64,000 nucleotides of DNA from Arthrobacter terrae (lineage in GTDB: Bacteria; Actinomycetota; Actinomycetes; Actinomycetales; Micrococcaceae): assembly GCF_015708085.1 (NCBI RefSeq), contig NZ_JADNYM010000006.1, forward strand, positions 1 to 64,000, in the 5' to 3' direction. The notes under the pieces are model-generated. The model worked only from the letters and a program-made list of their open reading frames with translations. It was not told where the DNA came from and searched no databases. The position numbers and the translations under genes are program-made. The number at the start of each line of letters is the position of its first letter. Positions within the stretch are counted from its first letter, which is position 1. Positions 53,336 to 63,997 of this stretch are shown here, in pieces.

Positions 53336-54556
53336 TTACGCCCCCATTAGTTCGTCATACGTCTCAGGCATTCTATGTGCACCCGATAGCAGGGCAGAAA
53401 GTAGTTCGGCCCGGAGGGAGCGAAGTGACTGTGCATGACTTTCCTGCTCGTTCGAGACTGAGAGGAACGATTCCGCCAACTCACAGAACGCCGACTGGTC
53501 TTCTCGTGAAACCGGAAGAATGATCTTGGTGTGAGTCAAGTACTGAGGAATGTTGAGGTTGCGGATGCCGGTAGTGAACTTCTGAAACGGCAGCGGGGCG
53601 TCTTGCTTGTACATCAGCCACATCACCCAGAACACGTAGGACGGATCGACGATGGCAGTGTCCGGTCTCAGAAGGCGCATGAAGTCCGACGGAACAACAT
53701 TTGGTGGTGTGTTGCGGCCACGAATTACGCGCCCCACAGGTTGAGTTGGTGAGCCACCGGACCGCTCAAGGACAACGTCACCAGCTTGGATGGTTCGGAC
53801 TGCGGCACGCTTGAAAGAAAGACTTCTGCGGCTACCCAGCGCCGCGTCAACTTCCGTATGCCCATTGGCGTAGGCACTCGGACCGATTGCGACAACGTCC
53901 GTGTCCTCGGCGCCTGGCTCGCTTCCCCATGATCCACCGATGACGTGGCTGAACACCGACTCCAGAGGGAGAGGTGTGCCAACCATTCCGGCGTACGCCG
54001 AGGCCAGACTGCGGACGCTAACAGAATCAAGGGTCTGCCGATTGGCATTGGCTGATTCGATGGCATCGTCCACGGCGCCGATCAGGTCAACGATGCGCCG
54101 CTGCTCGTCCAGAGATGGGACCGTCAGCTTAAGTTCCAAGAATCGATGGACATCGAGCCGAACCCGGTTCGTTGTGCCAGCTGAGACTTTGTCGCACAGG
54201 TCGGCGAATGCCGCACTCCGGACAATGATGCTGAAGTACTTCTTTGAGACCACGGCTTCATCGACGACATAGGACAGGAAATCGCCTGTGACTACGGCGC
54301 CGTCCAGCTCCGGTGGAAGGAGCGAATTCGAGCCTTTGCGTGCATCGATCTTGGAGATCATTAGGTCTCCCGTGCGCACCTCGAACCGGGCAGTCCCGAG
54401 TTCTGAGCCAAAGCAAACCTTTCTGAGCCTGGCCCCTTTCCCGTAGAGCGGAAGCGTGACCATTTTGTAGGAGGCCTCGGGGTCGATCGTGGCCTTTCTT
54501 CGAATCGGCGAGAGGAAGTCCGAGAATCTCATGCCTACCCGCGCTTCAGAAGTCAA
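53336..54556 (-). CDS. hsdS: Type I restriction-modification specificity subunit
   Basis: The 406-residue protein has the two-target-domain architecture: a first target-recognition domain (about 10-125), a conserved helix (VPSLDEQRRIVDLIGAVDDAIESANANRQTL), a second target domain (about 165-340), and a second conserved helix (PVSREDQSAFCELAESFLSVSNEQE). The two domains should recognise a bipartite sequence. It overlaps the end of hsdM by 11 bp, with a TTG start and AAGGCGG upstream. Confidence 0.88.
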   Translation of the reverse strand: MTSEARVGMRFSDFLSPIRRKATIDPEASYKMVTLPLYGKGARLRKVCFGSELGTARFEVRTGDLMISKIDARKGSNSLLPPELDGAVVTGDFLSYVVDEAVVSKKYFSIIVRSAAFADLCDKVSAGTTNRVRLDVHRFLELKLTVPSLDEQRRIVDLIGAVDDAIESANANRQTLDSVSVRSLASAYAGMVGTPLPLESVFSHVIGGSWGSEPGAEDTDVVAIGPSAYANGHTEVDAALGSRRSLSFKRAAVRTIQAGDVVLERSGGSPTQPVGRVIRGRNTPPNVVPSDFMRLLRPDTAIVDPSYVFWVMWLMYKQDAPLPFQKFTTGIRNLNIPQYLTHTKIILPVSREDQSAFCELAESFLSVSNEQESHAQSLRSLRAELLSALLSGAHRMPETYDELMGA

Positions 54557-56063
54557 AGCCAGCCGCCTTCAGCTTGTCCGCCAGCACTTCTTCGACCGCT
54601 GCGAGCCGTTCGCGGCTTTCCTGGTAGGCGATGAGGGCTTCCTCAACATTGGCTTCGCCGACACTCTCGGTCTTGATGTAACGGCCAATGTTCAGATCGA
54701 AACCGTTCTCCTCAAGCTCCTCCATGCCGACCAGACGGAGGCTCAGCCCGCCTTCACCGTCGATGTCTTTGCCTTGCTTGTAGGCCGCGTCGATGACCTC
54801 GATGTCCTCATCCGACATGGTGTTCTGGTTCTTGCCCGAGACGAACCGTTTGGACGCGTCGATGAACAGGACCTTGTCCCGGCGTTCGGCCGGTTTCTGC
54901 CTCCGGAAGATGAGCAGACACACCGGGATGGACGTCGAGTAGAAGAGGTTGTTAGGCAGGCCAATGACGGCCTCGAGCAGGTCCTTGCGGATCAGGCATT
55001 CCCGGATGGCGCCTTCTTTGCCACCGCGGAACAGCACGCCGTGCGGCATGACGACGCCGACCCGGCCGGTGTCTTCCTTCATGGAGGCAACCATGTGCTG
55101 GATCCAGGCGTAGTCGCCGTTCTTGGCTGGCGGGACACCGCAGATGACCCGGCTATAGGGGTCGTTGGTCCAACCTTCGGCACCCCAGTTCTGCAGCGAG
55201 AACGGCGGGTTGGCGATGACGACGTCGAATTTCTGCAGACCGTCGCCGTCCAGAAGCTTCGGTTCCCGGAACGAGTCACCCCGGACGATTTTGAACTCCT
55301 TGAGCCCATGCAGGTACAGGTTCATCTTCGCGATGGCGCTGGTGGTCAGGTTGATTTCCTGCCCGTGCAGGTGAAGGGTCCGGGCGTCCCCACCGGCCTC
55401 CTTCACCGCCGTGACCGTCTCGACGAGCATGCCACCGGAACCGCAGGCAGGGTCCGCGATGGTGTCCCCCGGCTTCGGGGCCAAGATCTTCACCAGAAGG
55501 TGCACCACATGGCGCGGTGTGAAGAATTCGCCGGCCTTCTTCCCAGACGCTTCGGCGAACTCCCGCAGCAGATACTCATACGCGGAGCCGAGCATGTCGC
55601 CGTTGACGCTGTCCGGGTCTAGCCGGACCGAATGGAACGAGTTGAGCAGCGCGGCCAGCGCGGTTTGGGGAAGGCGTTCCTGGTTGGCCCACTGCACGTC
55701 GCCGAAGACGCCGGCGAGGGCGTCCGGGTTAGCCTGCTGGATGCGCTGCATGGCGTTGTCCAGCTTCACCCCGGTCTGGTGCGCGGTCTCGATGACATCA
55801 ACCCAGTGGCAACCGTCCGGGATGGCGAACGTATGGTAATCCGCCTCAATCTCATCCGTCAGGGCATCCCCGAAGTCTTCGATTGCGCGGACCCGCTCGT
55901 GGTCCCAACTGTCGCTGATCCACTTGAAGAACATCACCGGGAAGACATAGGCCTTGAAGTCTCCAGGATCAACGGGCCCCCGCAGGGCGTTGGCAGCCGA
56001 CCACAGGGTCGATTCCAACTGTCGCTGGGACAGGTGTCCGGGCTCGGTGGTGGAGAGCGTCAA
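54546..56063 (-). CDS. hsdM: Type I DNA methyltransferase subunit
   Basis: The 505-residue protein is an N6-adenine methyltransferase: an HsdM N-terminal helical domain, motif I DPACGSGG (204-211), motif IV NPPF (283-286), and a C-terminal part with the typical RRDKVLFIDASK segment. The start is a TTG at 56063 with GAGGA upstream. A motif A copy lies 35-56 bp upstream, so the restriction system shares a regulatory signature with the pilus genes. Confidence 0.92.
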   Translation of the reverse strand: MTLSTTEPGHLSQRQLESTLWSAANALRGPVDPGDFKAYVFPVMFFKWISDSWDHERVRAIEDFGDALTDEIEADYHTFAIPDGCHWVDVIETAHQTGVKLDNAMQRIQQANPDALAGVFGDVQWANQERLPQTALAALLNSFHSVRLDPDSVNGDMLGSAYEYLLREFAEASGKKAGEFFTPRHVVHLLVKILAPKPGDTIADPACGSGGMLVETVTAVKEAGGDARTLHLHGQEINLTTSAIAKMNLYLHGLKEFKIVRGDSFREPKLLDGDGLQKFDVVIANPPFSLQNWGAEGWTNDPYSRVICGVPPAKNGDYAWIQHMVASMKEDTGRVGVVMPHGVLFRGGKEGAIRECLIRKDLLEAVIGLPNNLFYSTSIPVCLLIFRRQKPAERRDKVLFIDASKRFVSGKNQNTMSDEDIEVIDAAYKQGKDIDGEGGLSLRLVGMEELEENGFDLNIGRYIKTESVGEANVEEALIAYQESRERLAAVEEVLADKLKAAGFDF

Positions 56064-58119: not shown

Positions 58120-59485
58120 TGTCTTTCACCTCCACCAGGTGAGCCCATTCCGGGACGCTGTCGATCCAGTGCTGGGAGGTCACGTTGATCAGCAGGACGA
58201 TCACCGGAACGGACGGGCGTTCGGTCGGCCACCAGGTTTCACCGTCGGTCGCGATAATGATGGCGGACGGCTTTTTCGGCAGGGACAGGGCATGCACAAT
58301 CGCTTCACCCATATCGGTGCCGCCGCGGCCGGCAATCTCCGTGATGGAGTCTTTGCCGGTGAACTTCACTGACTGATGGACCATCGTGTCAATGTCCGAG
58401 ACGATCAGGTCGTCACCTTTGATGCCCAGCTTCCGGGCGATGGCGTAAACCTCATTGGTCGCCATGGCAAGGTCATGGTCGTTGACGGAGCCGGACGTGT
58501 CCCGGTAAAAGTGGATCGACGGGATTGGTTTGATGTAACCGGGCGCGATCACGCGGCCGAGGACGCGGCCCTTCCCATCAGACATTGTTTCGTTCATCCG
58601 GCGGCGGTTCCGGCGCTTGTACGTCGCGTCGTGGTATCCGGCCTTGTGGGCGACGGCGCGGCGGACATGCGAGGCCAGGACCCGCTCCCACGGTGTCTTG
58701 GACGGTGTGAGGATTTCATCGATGATCTGGGCGATACCACCGGGGACAGAACCGATGCCGTGCTGTTCCTGATGCTGGCGGACAGCGGACGCCGTCGCAA
58801 TGCGGACCAGGTTCTTTTCGATAGCGGACGCCGCTTCGGCCTGACCGCCCATCGTTTCATCGTCACCAAGTTCATGACCACCTTTACGGCCACCGGCACC
58901 GGAACCGCAGCCCTTCATCGGGGTCGGCTGGCCCTGGCCGGGGGCGTTGCCGGAACCGGCCTGCGGCTGTCCGTCCTGGCCGGGCTGGCCCTGGCCTCCC
59001 TGCTGGCCCTGCTGAGGCTTGGGCTTGTTGGCCTGCTTCTGGCGCAGAACTTCCATGTAGTGCAGCGGTGTCTGGTAGTCGGGCTCCCCGATGTGCGCAG
59101 CGAACACACCATGCTTGGCGAGGGCGTCACACCCGGCGTCCCGCAGATCATCATTAATGCTCATATCAGCGGCTGCGTTCCAGGTTTCGTGCTCATCATT
59201 GGAGACACCGGCCAGCTCGGCCAGCCAGGAATGCTCGGCCAGCAGATGCGAGCACTCATGCAGCAGGGCTTCGGCCCCGAACTGGGCACCCATAGGAATG
59301 ACCTTGTCGAAGTTGATGTAGCAGCGGTGGCCGGGGTCCACACCGAAGGTGTCCACAGCGTCGGAGTTGACCGGGCGGAGCGAAAACATCAGCGAGCCCA
59401 TGTAGGGCATGATCTGCAAAGCGGTGGCACGCCAGGCCTGAAAATGCAGCATCTGATCGTCTGTGGGAGTGGTGAGGTTTCTCAT
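58112..59485 (-). CDS. VWA-domain protein with metallopeptidase motif (MoxR partner)
   Basis: The 457-residue protein contains a HECSH zinc motif (76-80) in a DUF2201-like N-terminal domain and a long Gln/Gly/Pro-rich linker (about 150-205). A VWA-like domain with MIDAS motif DTSGS (329-333) and a later GGTDMGEA follow. The combination is typical of proteins paired with MoxR ATPases; one is encoded at 40.0-41.1 kb. The ATG at 59485 is exactly 7 bp after the CACACAT of motif B. Confidence 0.8.
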   Translation of the reverse strand: MRNLTTPTDDQMLHFQAWRATALQIMPYMGSLMFSLRPVNSDAVDTFGVDPGHRCYINFDKVIPMGAQFGAEALLHECSHLLAEHSWLAELAGVSNDEHETWNAAADMSINDDLRDAGCDALAKHGVFAAHIGEPDYQTPLHYMEVLRQKQANKPKPQQGQQGGQGQPGQDGQPQAGSGNAPGQGQPTPMKGCGSGAGGRKGGHELGDDETMGGQAEAASAIEKNLVRIATASAVRQHQEQHGIGSVPGGIAQIIDEILTPSKTPWERVLASHVRRAVAHKAGYHDATYKRRNRRRMNETMSDGKGRVLGRVIAPGYIKPIPSIHFYRDTSGSVNDHDLAMATNEVYAIARKLGIKGDDLIVSDIDTMVHQSVKFTGKDSITEIAGRGGTDMGEAIVHALSLPKKPSAIIIATDGETWWPTERPSVPVIVLLINVTSQHWIDSVPEWAHLVEVKDNA

Positions 59486-59492
59486 GCCCATT

Positions 59493-59522
59493 ATGTGTGC
59501 GGCGTCCCCGGTCCTGCTCACC
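59493..59522 (-). promoter_or_regulatory. Motif B promoter of the VWA gene
   Basis: GGTGAG (59522-59517), 17 bp, CACACAT (59499-59493), 7 bp, ATG. This is the full consensus, with no ribosome-binding site. Confidence 0.7.
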
Positions 59523-59595: not shown

Positions 59596-60702
59596 TTAGT
59601 CGGTGGTCGGTGCACCGGCAAGCATGACGTCCAAGGGGACTTCGCGGCCGGTGACTTTCTGCACGTCGTCGCTGAGCCAGCGCTTGTTTTTAGGTCCGGA
59701 ACCGAAGCTTTCAAAGACCCCGTCCACGGCGTAGAGCTTCGCTTCCAGTTTCCGGGCGCGGGTGACCATGAGCAGACCGGCGCCGCGGGCGGACGGCTGG
59801 GCGAACACCGCATGCAATGCCCCGGCGCCGAAGCGCAGGGCGCGGAGGTCGACTTCGGCGATTTCTTTGCCGTCGGTGAGCCGGACCTTCTTGCCTTCTT
59901 TGAGCTTGAACGGGGAAGACACCGACGCGGAAAACTCACGGGAATCGGAGTTCATCGGCACGATCCGGCACGCCTGACCGTCGATCACATGCATTTCCAG
60001 CAAACCCGGGTCGATGGTGCGCAGACCGTTCGCCTTCGCGGAGAAACCTTCGAGCATGGAATACACGTAGCAGTCATTGGAGATACCGCCCCACGCCGCC
60101 TGTTCCATGATCTTGCGTTCCATGTCCTCCATTGCTTTGACCGCGACCTCATATTTGAGGGCGGTCGGCCGCGTACCGGCCTGGGCCAGTGCAATCAGCG
60201 ACCGCATTGTGAACGCGACGGACGGGCCTTTGACGTTGAACGCCTCAGCCCAGTCATCAAAGCTTGTTTCCGTCAGTGTGTCCGGCAGCCAGTAGCGGTA
60301 GCTCAGCGCCTCGGTCAGGATCGGAAGTTTCAGCGACACGGGCAGTCCCCTGCTGATGCGCAGGCGACGTCCCAGTGCTTTGAAATCGGTGGAGGGCATG
60401 TTGTCGGCCATGACGAGCACCTTGGCCCAGGTCTTGGCGTCAGGGACGACCGTGGAGGCCAGCGGTTCAATGAGGGCTTTCTCGAGCACGTCCGGGGTCA
60501 GCGGGACGGCGGGTGCGTTGAGGGCGTGATACTGGAGGCCTTTGCCTCGGGAGTAAATCATCCCGGTCGGTGCGATGCCCAGACCGGGGAACAGTGAACG
60601 ATCACCGGGCACGTTGGCGAAGGCCGCTGCGGCTCGCGCTTCGGCACGGTAAGCGACGAGGATGTCTTTAGGGGAAGCGGGGGCTATCGCAATGGCTGTC
60701 AT
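59596..60702 (-). CDS. Unknown protein upstream of the VWA operon
   Basis: The 368-residue protein is soluble. It has a helical N-terminus (MTAIAIAPASPKDILVAYRAEARAAAAF) and a C-terminal beta-rich region with ADGRPLDG-like loops. I recognise no family. The ATG at 60702 is exactly 7 bp after CACACAT (motif B), and there is no ribosome-binding site. A terminator separates it from the VWA gene downstream, which has its own motif B copy. Confidence 0.62.
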   Translation of the reverse strand: MTAIAIAPASPKDILVAYRAEARAAAAFANVPGDRSLFPGLGIAPTGMIYSRGKGLQYHALNAPAVPLTPDVLEKALIEPLASTVVPDAKTWAKVLVMADNMPSTDFKALGRRLRISRGLPVSLKLPILTEALSYRYWLPDTLTETSFDDWAEAFNVKGPSVAFTMRSLIALAQAGTRPTALKYEVAVKAMEDMERKIMEQAAWGGISNDCYVYSMLEGFSAKANGLRTIDPGLLEMHVIDGQACRIVPMNSDSREFSASVSSPFKLKEGKKVRLTDGKEIAEVDLRALRFGAGALHAVFAQPSARGAGLLMVTRARKLEAKLYAVDGVFESFGSGPKNKRWLSDDVQKVTGREVPLDVMLAGAPTTD

Positions 60703-60709
60703 GTCTCTT

Positions 60710-60739
60710 ATGTGTGCGGCGCCGGCCGCCCCGCTCACC
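60710..60739 (-). promoter_or_regulatory. Motif B promoter of the 368-residue protein
   Basis: GGTGAG (60739-60734), 17 bp, CACACAT (60716-60710), 7 bp, ATG. This is a full consensus copy. Confidence 0.7.
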
Positions 60740-61242
60740 GGACAAAAGGCCTTGCTGCGGTGCGTCCGGCGCCAATTCCCGCCCTACCGGCCGTTCCCAC
60801 CAAACGACCGTCACCCTACCACTTGGTCGAGTGGGAAAATCCCCGGAACGGCGGGGAATATAGGGCCCCTACTACTACTACTCTACTTAAACGACCTTAA
60901 GAGATATATATATATAGGGGCCCCCTTGCTCTCTACCCTTCAGCCCCTCCCTCTTATAAGAGAGTACTTTTCTCTCCATATATATGTCCCTCCCCAGGTA
61001 GGTTTGGTCGAGTGAGGGTCCGGCACCGGGCAAAATCCGCGCCAGCACTGGGATGCAGGCCTGTCCGGTGTTACGAGTGGCGGTAGGTTGGGCCATGTTT
61101 GGGGTGTTTTTGCGGTGGAGTGGGTTCACGGATAGAACCAGTGAGAGACCGCGGATTTGAAGCCACGTGATAACCTGAGGAACGATACCGACCCCTAGAG
61201 ACGAGGGTTATCACGTGAGGTCCTGACCAGGACCCGTGACAC
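60740..61242. other. AT-rich, repeat-filled intergenic region; candidate replication or transfer origin
   Basis: This 500-bp stretch has no gene and is far more AT-rich than the rest, with runs of TA repeats near 60905-60917 and 60979-60986. It holds GGGCCCCTA / TAGGGGCCC arms flanking an ACTACTACT run, a perfect 12-bp palindrome CTCTTATAAGAG (near 60951), a direct repeat TTGGTCGAGTG (near 60823 and 61004), and the long inverted repeat at 61164-61217. It lies between divergent motif B genes. An origin of replication, an oriT or a centromere-like site are all possible. Confidence 0.5.
61164..61217. repeat. 12-bp inverted repeat with E-box-like ends
   Basis: CACGTGATAACC (61164-61175) and GGTTATCACGTG (61206-61217) are perfect inverse copies about 30 bp apart, upstream of the helicase promoter. 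Confidence 0.8.
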
Positions 61243-61272
61243 GGTGAGGGCTAGCATCGGCGCCGCACACAT
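61243..61272 (+). promoter_or_regulatory. Motif B promoter of the helicase gene
   Basis: GGTGAG (61243-61248), 17 bp, CACACAT (61266-61272), 7 bp, ATG at 61280. This is a full consensus copy. Confidence 0.7.
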
Positions 61273-61279
61273 AAAGGCC

Positions 61280-62572
61280 ATGACTTCCCTTGGAATTGAC
61301 CTCGCAGACCTCGGCTTCGCGCCAATCATCGACGTACCCGAGCAGGCACTGGCCGAACCCGTCAACGACGGACGTACCCTCATCGTCGGGTCCACCCTCG
61401 CCAAAGCGCTGTACAGCGTGTGGTCAGGTGCTCCCATCACGATCGTTGACTCCCCTCCCGGGGCCGGAAAGACCACCTTGGTCGCCCAGGCCGTCGCTTA
61501 CCTGCGGGAACGGTCCAACCTGAAAATCATCGTCGCGTGCGCCACCCGCCGCGCCGCGTATGACATTGCGGAACGGATTGCTGCAGAGCTCGGTCCGGAC
61601 AAAGACGGCAACCCGCAGGTTGCCTTGTCGGTCTCCAACATGGAACCGCCCATCGGCGTCTCCCGAGGCGGTGCCTCCGCCGGGGGCAAAAACATTCCGG
61701 TTGTGCGCACCATCGCATCCTGCAAAACGTCCAACCGTCCGACCTGTGATCTGATGATCATTGACGAGGCCTACCAGGCGACATTCGCTGACGTGTCCAA
61801 CGCCTCCGACGAAGCCCAGCAGCTTCTCATGGTGGGTGATCCCGGCCAGATCGGACCGGTCGTGACAGCCGACGTGTCCGCGTTCCGTGGGCGCGAAACG
61901 GCTCCCCAGATGCGCGCCCCGGAAGTGTTCGCCAGGATGGTGAACGCTGAAATCCATTCCCTGGACACCACGTACCGGCTCGGCCAGGAAACCGTTGACG
62001 CTATCGCGCCACTGTACGATTTTCCGTTCTCATCCTCCCGCCCGGACCGGTACCTGACCGACGCGGACGGTGAGCGGGTCTCCGAAATCGTGCCGCTGCT
62101 GCTGGACCCGTCCCCGACGTTTGACCACCTGCCGACGCTGGTCCGGGTTGCTGAATACGCGGCTGGTCTCATCGGGGTTGAGCTGGTCGAATTTGACGAC
62201 GATGATCAGCCGTTCAACCGTGCGCTGGTCGCATCCGACATCGCCGTTGTGGTCGCCCACAATGCCCAGGCATCCGGCATCACCGCGATCCTGCGGACGC
62301 TGAAAGCGGACGGCATCCATGTCGGCACGGCCGATAAGATGCAGGGCGGCCAGTGGCACGCGGTGGTCGCCATGGACCCGTTCATCGGTTACACCTCCGC
62401 CGGTTCCCATCAGCTCTCCCCCGGCCGCCTGTGCGTTATGGCTTCCAGGCATCAAACCCACTTGTCATGGGCCCATGATGGCGACTGGGAGACAGCCCTG
62501 ATGGACCCGGACATCGACCAGAACGAAGCGCGGCTCGGCCGTCGCGTCCGCATCGCGCTGACCGCCGAATAG
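61280..62572 (+). CDS. SF1-type DNA helicase
   Basis: The 430-residue protein has Walker A SPPGAGKTT (58-66), Walker B MIIDEAYQ (159-166), motif III-like GDPGQIGPV, and late motifs TADKMQGGQWHAVVAMD and PGRLCVMASRHQTHLSW, as in SF1 (UvrD/RecD/Pif1-like) helicases. It is short for a UvrD, more like plasmid or phage helicases. The ATG at 61280 fits the 7-bp rule after CACACAT. It stands next to the AT-rich repeat region, so replication or transfer initiation is plausible. Confidence 0.8.
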   Translation: MTSLGIDLADLGFAPIIDVPEQALAEPVNDGRTLIVGSTLAKALYSVWSGAPITIVDSPPGAGKTTLVAQAVAYLRERSNLKIIVACATRRAAYDIAERIAAELGPDKDGNPQVALSVSNMEPPIGVSRGGASAGGKNIPVVRTIASCKTSNRPTCDLMIIDEAYQATFADVSNASDEAQQLLMVGDPGQIGPVVTADVSAFRGRETAPQMRAPEVFARMVNAEIHSLDTTYRLGQETVDAIAPLYDFPFSSSRPDRYLTDADGERVSEIVPLLLDPSPTFDHLPTLVRVAEYAAGLIGVELVEFDDDDQPFNRALVASDIAVVVAHNAQASGITAILRTLKADGIHVGTADKMQGGQWHAVVAMDPFIGYTSAGSHQLSPGRLCVMASRHQTHLSWAHDGDWETALMDPDIDQNEARLGRRVRIALTAE

Positions 62573-62606: not shown

Positions 62607-62636
62607 GGGCAGGGACCAAGCCGTCTCCGCACACAT
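62607..62636 (+). promoter_or_regulatory. Motif B-like promoter of the 62-residue gene
   Basis: GGGCAG (62607-62612), 17 bp, CACACAT (62630-62636), 7 bp, ATG at 62644. The -35-like box is diverged; the rest is consensus. Confidence 0.55.
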
Positions 62637-62643
62637 AGGGTTC

Positions 62644-62832
62644 ATGACAACGACGAAGCATCTGTGGGACCACGAGCACCCGCACTATTGCGAGCACGGC
62701 AACTTTTACTCCCGTGGTTTGGCTACCGGGTATGAGTCCTGGGCTGAATTTTCCCGTCCGGTCACGTATGACCGGAGCGGCCCGCAACTCATCCAGGACG
62801 GACGTTGCTCTATGACGGGGATCCGGATATGA
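62644..62832 (+). CDS. Small His/Cys-containing protein
   Basis: The 62-residue protein starts with MTTTKHLWDHEHPHYCEHGNF, in which several His and one Cys could bind zinc. It is unrecognised. The ATG follows CACACAT by 7 bp and has no ribosome-binding site. Its stop overlaps the ATG of the next gene (ATGA). Confidence 0.6.
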   Translation: MTTTKHLWDHEHPHYCEHGNFYSRGLATGYESWAEFSRPVTYDRSGPQLIQDGRCSMTGIRI

Positions 62833-63801: not shown

Positions 63802-63960
63802 CTATTTGAGGAGGCGGACCATGACGCCCGGCTGGAGGAGGAAAACGGTCGGCAGGGCCATGATGGCCAGCAGGGACAACCCGTTGAACGTCGGCTGAGC
63901 GATACCAATGACGAAGGCGGCGGCGAGGATGCTGATCTGGAGTGCTTTACGTGTTCTCAT
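63802..63960 (-). CDS. 52-residue membrane protein under motif B
   Basis: MRTRKALQ is followed by two hydrophobic segments (ISILAAAFVIGIAQ and LSLLAIMALPTVFLLQPG). The ATG at 63960 lies exactly 7 bp after CACACAT with a full GGTGAC box 17 bp further up. Function unknown. Confidence 0.62.
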   Translation of the reverse strand: MRTRKALQISILAAAFVIGIAQPTFNGLSLLAIMALPTVFLLQPGVMVRLLK

Positions 63961-63967
63961 GCCTTTC

Positions 63968-63997
63968 ATGTGTGCGGCGTTCGGTGACCTCGTCACC
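63968..63997 (-). promoter_or_regulatory. Motif B promoter of the 52-residue gene
   Basis: GGTGAC (63997-63992), 17 bp, CACACAT (63974-63968), 7 bp, ATG. This is a full consensus copy. Confidence 0.7.

Follow-up and report, generated by a model that had tools for sequence, protein, structure and literature searches.

The gene-free stretch that an earlier note flagged as a candidate oriV or oriT is one copy of a dispersed noncoding element of about 440 bp, of which five complete Micrococcaceae plasmids (375-440 kb) carry four or five copies each and which very probably acts as a cis-acting nucleoprotein site of the plasmid. Sequence comparison points to an undescribed DNA-maintenance system, most likely a set of extra replication start sites, and the best explanation, with a probability of roughly 0.45, is that the copies are auxiliary replication origins separate from the oriV of the rep/par locus. 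What the sequences themselves show is the syntenic positions of the copies, their homogenisation within each plasmid, the fixed geometry of their repeats, the replacement of the repeat word between plasmids and, for one plasmid, an orientation independent of how the adjacent genes run. The open-access literature searched contained no description of the element.

The window, that is the whole stretch of 64,000 nucleotides from Arthrobacter terrae that was analysed (contig C56, positions 1-64000), holds the copy at locus A. Three further copies are found among the 63 contigs of this genome, one on C56 (192 kb) and two on C45 (195 kb; Table 1), and these three are 99% identical among themselves. 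The end of C56 and the start of C45 carry parts of one RtcB-family gene, and hence the two contigs probably form one plasmid of about 390 kb with the copies in the order A, B, C, D'. A search for the same repeats in related plasmids, proposed in the earlier note, recovered elements of the same geometry on all five complete plasmids. BLASTN found four copies each in pACHL01 (NC_011879.1; complete circular, 426,858 bp) and pYJN5-1 (complete circular, 440,465 bp), and weaker but clear matches at four places in the plasmids of Arthrobacter sp. zg-Y1110 (400,603 bp) and A. caoxuetaonis (genome G317; 374,851 bp). The fifth plasmid, pPA-B-2242, gave no BLASTN match to the element and carries five copies around the plasmid with 94-95% identity. 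The spacing of the copies is more even than random in three of the five plasmids (P about 0.003-0.011; the plasmids are not independent). A single copy is present on a contig of another genome (G097, C17), while a diverged element in G085 (C27) lies beyond the reach of BLASTN and was reached via the hairpin described below and a covariance model. The hairpin also led to two diverged copies 14 kb apart on the chromosome of G170 (C1:1221039-1221559 and 1235310-1235770), in a region with fragments of plasmid-family genes, which are probably the remains of a decayed integrated plasmid. A phage origin was rejected, as the element and the adjoining helicase had no match in 50,697 phage records and the hairpin was absent from viral contigs.

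Most of what had been noticed in the window copy holds. The stretch is free of genes and lies between divergent genes that each start with motif B, and its plus-strand neighbour is indeed a helicase gene, of superfamily 1. The TA runs (60904-60916), perfect 12-bp palindromes (TATATATATATA at 60905 and CTCTTATAAGAG at 60951), the arms around the ACT-triplet run (GGGCCCC at 60863-60869 and GGGGCCCC at 60917-60925) and the direct repeat (TTGGTCGAGTG, both copies on the same strand) are all present. The description as AT-rich applies to 60860-61000, which at 44.7% GC belongs to the lowest 0.06% of 140-bp windows, but not to the stretch as a whole, which has 56% GC (window overall 62%). Similarly, the 12-bp inverted repeat exists (CACGTGATAACC/GGTTATCACGTG), but with arms 30 bp apart it is not long-range.

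Each copy of the element contains 5-bp iterons, CNACC on the left and the reverse complement GGTNG on the right, in a fixed layout. The left cluster is followed by a central site next to the AT-rich/GGGCCCC core, then by a right pair spaced by 9 bp and a right array. With zero set at the inverted site of the left cluster, the sites of the window copy are at offsets -41, -28, -20, -9, 0, +67, +172, +181, +257, +261 and +289. The window copy has 13 CNACC/GGTNG sites against 6.8 in shuffled sequence (at least 13 in 4 of 200 shuffles). The four genomic copies, this excess and a geometry common to copies of unrelated sequence together indicate more than chance. Phased short repeats and an AT-rich tract suited to unwinding, although a short one, are both features of an oriV.

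Table 1. Coordinates of the element copies and associated features; positions without a contig name refer to the window
Feature	Position	Strand	Remarks
Copy A	C56 60780-61217	+	91% identity to the other three copies of the genome
Second C56 copy	C56 171099-171527	+	
First C45 copy	C45 78092-78521	+	
Second C45 copy	C45 167116-167545	-	inverted
Left-side flanking gene	59596-60702	-	368-aa family; no Pfam match
Motif B, left gene start	60700-60718	-	CGCACACAT-N7-ATG
Left iteron cluster	60784-60829	+	CNACC at 60784, 60797, 60805, 60816; inverted GGTNG at 60825
TTGGTCGAGTG direct repeat, copy 1	60823-60833	+	
Most conserved block	60842-60896	+	includes GGAATATAGGGCCCCTACTACTACTACTCTACTTAAACGAC; nearly invariant in 13 copies
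Central iteron CGACC	60892	+	offset +67
(TA)n tract, then GGGGCCCCC palindrome	60904-60925		candidate unwinding region
Perfect palindrome CTCTTATAAGAG	60951-60962		unconserved in relatives
Right inverted iteron pair, 9 bp apart	60997-61014	-	GGTAG 60997, GGTCG 61006; TTGGTCGAGTG copy 2 at 61004
Right inverted iteron array	61082-61118	-	GGTNG at 61082, 61086, 61114
Hairpin module	61142-61217	+	TGAGAGAC box; 12-bp stem 61164-61175/61206-61217; conserved loop TGAGGAACG...AGAGACGA
Motif B, right gene	61264-61282	+	
SF1 helicase gene	61280-62572	+	ATG 61280; Pfam AAA_30 3.6e-11; PHROG Dda-like
rep/par cluster	C45 185-192 kb; pACHL01 193-199 kb		at or near GC-skew minimum

The offsets of the left cluster (-41, -28, -20, -9, 0) are found again in lineages that use other iteron words. 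These words are ACGACC/CTACC, CCAACCGG/GCCGACC, GTCCCACC (the word of G170), GTTCCACC (that of the G085 contig) and GACCGACC, and the spacing is unchanged. For instance, the elements of G085 and zg-Y1110 have nine coincident sites (null mean 0.58, maximum 4). Moreover, TraD and one flanking protein of G085 are 74-82% identical to those of pACHL01, yet the iteron word differs and the two elements have only the hairpin and short patches in common. Recognition words are replaced faster than flanking genes, as would suit incompatibility determinants. A swap of the word at kept spacing, alongside conserved backbone genes, is as expected if the site evolves together with one binding protein, and the element may set incompatibility.

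Homogenisation within plasmids is evident when the copies are compared with their surroundings. The ORFs are syntenic between plasmids, with the order A-D and the positions conserved; loci B, C and D have orthologous neighbours throughout, and locus A is orthologous in our plasmid, pACHL01, pYJN5-1 and pPA-B-2242 and lies elsewhere in zg-Y1110. Despite this, the copies group by plasmid and not by locus, which shows that they are homogenised within each plasmid by concerted evolution. Identity within a plasmid is 91-99% in our plasmid, 83-96% in pACHL01 and 70-95% in pYJN5-1, against about 65-76% between the plasmids of this clade. In the tree, the copies of our plasmid, pACHL01, zg-Y1110 and G317 form one group each (support 98/100, 97/98, 86/74 and 100/99, respectively), while those of pYJN5-1 are resolved only in part. 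Copies C and D are nearest neighbours in most plasmids.

Upstream of locus C lies a gene for a 1050-aa protein that combines a TOPRIM-like part (DUF3854, sub-threshold) with a Walker-A ATPase part whose motifs were read by eye, and on these grounds the protein is a putative TOPRIM-like replicative helicase. TBLASTN found this protein on exactly eight plasmids, five of Arthrobacter type and three from Curtobacterium, and in the former one element copy always adjoins its gene. An element was accordingly predicted at the syntenic locus C of pPA-B-2242, and the prediction held: a new word occurs there in the same left geometry (offsets -29, -20, -9 and 0; P < 0.004 in every comparison). The Curtobacterium plasmids (546-608 kb) carry related genes, and the two that were checked have related AT- and triplet-rich intergenic sequence upstream of the 1050-aa gene, with two recognisable copies in pS16 and one in D40. 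Their membership of the element family is tentative, since no iteron word can be assigned. A gene for a ParA-like 694-aa protein is also found upstream, at locus C only.

The 12-bp inverted repeat belongs to a separate hairpin module that covaries, with five of the 12 stem pairs changed on both sides (score 0.167 versus 0.069 in shuffles, 0/500). A hairpin resembling an intrinsic terminator then follows in G170 and, except at locus A, in most copies of clade 1; the window copy has no scored terminator. The module was detected in Micrococcaceae only, in 8 of 395 genomes (one match being weak), and nowhere else among 396 genomes drawn from the order. In zg-Y1110 and A. caoxuetaonis it is found in copy A and is missing from the other three of four copies. 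A plus-strand small RNA may plausibly end at the hairpin. An RNA formed by the whole element was rejected, as the element folds no better than shuffles and matches no Rfam covariance model at gathering score.

A separate rep/par cluster consists of a rep-like gene of 614-661 aa, a conserved small gene with upstream repeats, parA and species-specific repeat arrays (Table 1); the rep and par readings follow from position, ParA annotation and sequence resemblance. The rep-like protein has no Pfam, NCBIfam or PDB match, and PDB profile searches with the helicase were likewise negative. The arrays between the rep-like gene and parA (CACTAGTACTG; AATGG...CCATTTGCG; C45 about 186.9-187.5 kb, pACHL01 196.5-198.1 kb) appear centromere-like and differ in each plasmid. 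This locus at the GC-skew minimum makes a canonical oriV role of the element unlikely. A sole oriV is rejected, as there are four or five equivalent copies and the rep-like gene, with its own repeats, stands elsewhere and not beside the element. The idea of an origin in the earlier note consequently survives as to anatomy (phased iterons round an AT-rich centre, one copy beside a TOPRIM-like helicase gene) and fails as to a single oriV. GC skew, which it had suggested as a check, lacks a step of the origin type at loci B and C, and the steps at A and D are weak; it does not change sign at the site and is dominated by the coding strand. Locating origins in this way was given up, as analysis of third codon positions revealed mostly a coding-strand effect, without a consistent step where the elements lie. 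It is hence unlikely that every copy fires constitutively in both directions. All 16 copies in our plasmid, pACHL01, pYJN5-1 and zg-Y1110 have the same orientation relative to a fork leaving rep/par. Should replication begin at that locus, the transcription of most genes would run head-on into the fork, an unusual arrangement.

We favour auxiliary origins because facing arrays surround an AT-rich core and the element is constantly associated with a helicase-type gene. One plasmid-encoded protein would bind the CNACC iterons, working inwards from each arm, the AT-rich/GGGCCCC core enclosed by the facing arrays would be distorted or opened, and the replication proteins of the plasmid (the TOPRIM-like helicase beside locus C, DnaE, SSB and ligases) would load there. 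The copies would then be auxiliary origins about 50-130 kb apart, perhaps used in one phase of plasmid life only, and their use may be conditional or unidirectional. The weak or missing skew steps, the separate rep/par locus and the short AT-rich core count against this reading. More tentative is the fuller proposal of a megaplasmid family in which dispersed copies of one iteron origin, four or five per plasmid, would serve replication in one phase at least; gene conversion would homogenise them, and their word would be replaced wholesale between plasmids.

The main rival, which we consider unlikely, is a dispersed centromere made up of several partition or DNA-organisation sites under a centromere-binding protein; the copies would then be comparable to the four IR sites of N15, or be giant relatives of the split parC/tubC centromeres. 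Two facing iteron clusters with near-helical spacing resemble the split parC/tubC (PMC5016525), SopB of N15 uses IR1-4 (PMC7205306), the copies are evenly spaced, a ParA-like protein is encoded near locus C, and turnover of the word suits incompatibility. However, the rep locus already has a conventional parA with adjacent repeat arrays of different words, centromeres do not typically have an AT-rich core between their clusters, and no ParB, ParR or TubR match was found among the subset of proteins scanned. It is improbable that the copies are sites of recombination, dimer resolution or replication-fork control, with their homogeneity as a direct trace of exchange among them. Such sites would suit the concerted evolution, in which gene conversion is frequent, the nuclease genes beside B and C and the uniform orientation to a fork from rep/par, but no recombinase gene is tied to the element, inverted and direct copies coexist, and frequent crossover would hardly have left the order and direction of A-D conserved. 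An oriT or clt-type transfer site is very improbable: inverted repeats are present, but nothing was found in support of the transfer function that the earlier note had considered. TraD-like and FtsK-like genes lie near locus D and not near the window copy, there are four or five dispersed equivalents, no nic-type sequence was recognised, and MOB-suite typing (PLSDB) gave "non-mobilizable" for all matches.

Transcription control, by long operator/promoter regions of a four-operon regulon, seemed attractive at first and is now rather doubtful. In our plasmid, pACHL01, pYJN5-1 and zg-Y1110, each of the 16 copies has a gene start within about 150 bp in front of its left-array side, and two of these genes encode nucleases. 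However, two copies in pPA-B-2242 break the pattern, as the one at C is turned round relative to the nuclease gene and the one at 160 kb has no gene start in front of it, the A copy of zg-Y1110 precedes an unrelated gene, and no ORF of at least 150 aa starts near the G170 copies, so that coupling to genes is not a fixed property of the element. The window copy also has no sigma-70-type promoter, and the downstream proteins are mutually unrelated; paralogy of the four was sought by profile comparison and rejected. Hardly credible is a multicopy structured RNA gene with a plus-strand transcript up to the hairpin and terminator. The hairpin covaries, is followed by a terminator in several copies and also occurs apart, but only this module behaves so, and its absence from most copies in two plasmids and the lack of folding excess and Rfam matches for the whole element speak against it.

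Other features of these plasmids were recorded in passing. Further motif B sites in the window are at 62628-62646, 63958-63976 and 59483-59501, and 66 of the 67 matches in the genome fall on C56 and C45; relative plasmids have 127-142 occurrences of CGCACACAT each, versus 3-4 in shuffled sequence. The start position of the motif is a purine in about 90-97% of cases and the preceding base a pyrimidine in about 75-90%. Though only about half of these positions are start codons, this looks like a plasmid-specific promoter for leaderless mRNAs. A candidate reader is a 295-aa sigma-70-like protein with weak Sigma70_r3 and HTH matches (C45 84448-85356, minus strand; pACHL01 330755-331642), encoded upstream of the 1050-aa gene in Arthrobacter-type plasmids and also on the three Curtobacterium plasmids. 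Another protein of about 1000 aa fuses an SF2 helicase, a complete sigma-70 (regions 1.2-4) and a helicase-associated domain (C45 32641-35700, minus strand; pACHL01 377249-380221), with only a shorter partial match in zg-Y1110. In relatives, VWA-like and RNase H genes come after the gene of the 368-aa family. Adjacent genes at 53336-56063 of the window (minus strand) resemble HsdS and HsdM of type I restriction-modification, as read by eye. pACHL01 encodes DnaE, SSB, two ligases, NrdIEF, SecY/SecG/SecE, RtcB, a Thg1-like protein, Lsr2 and HU, and a CDS-free gap with a locus-tag jump at 27.3-32.7 kb looks like a tRNA array.

The usual assumption for bacterial plasmids is a single origin and a single partition locus. 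A large replicon whose four or five interchangeable nucleoprotein sites are evenly spaced and evolve in concert would be a natural multi-origin bacterial replicon, or else a dispersed-centromere plasmid. Either way, pACHL01 and the related plasmids provide a model open to testing, with specificity variants at hand in the form of five iteron words in one geometry. Iteron plasmid origins have several short direct or inverted repeats beside an AT-rich tract, and their plasmid-specific words can define incompatibility. The element is similar in all these respects; however, a single circular plasmid carries it at four or five dispersed places, well away from the apparent rep gene, and it shows concerted evolution and facing arrays. 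The IR sites of N15 are dispersed, and the origins of phage T4 are not known to be copies of one element. N15, a prophage-plasmid, resembles our plasmids in having four sites of one kind on one extrachromosomal element, but its centromere sites IR1-4 are single short palindromes bound by SopB (PMC7205306), whereas the element has about ten sites in some 440 bp. T4 has several replication origins (PMC3016281) and is likewise a large element that brings its own replication proteins and starts replication at more than one place, but uses R-loop primers. The split iteron centromeres parC of plasmid R1 and tubC of pBtoxis also have two near-helically spaced iteron clusters that flank a central stretch, but they are single loci upstream of a par operon (PMC5016525), whereas the copies of the element, four or five in number and dispersed, have no par operon next to them.
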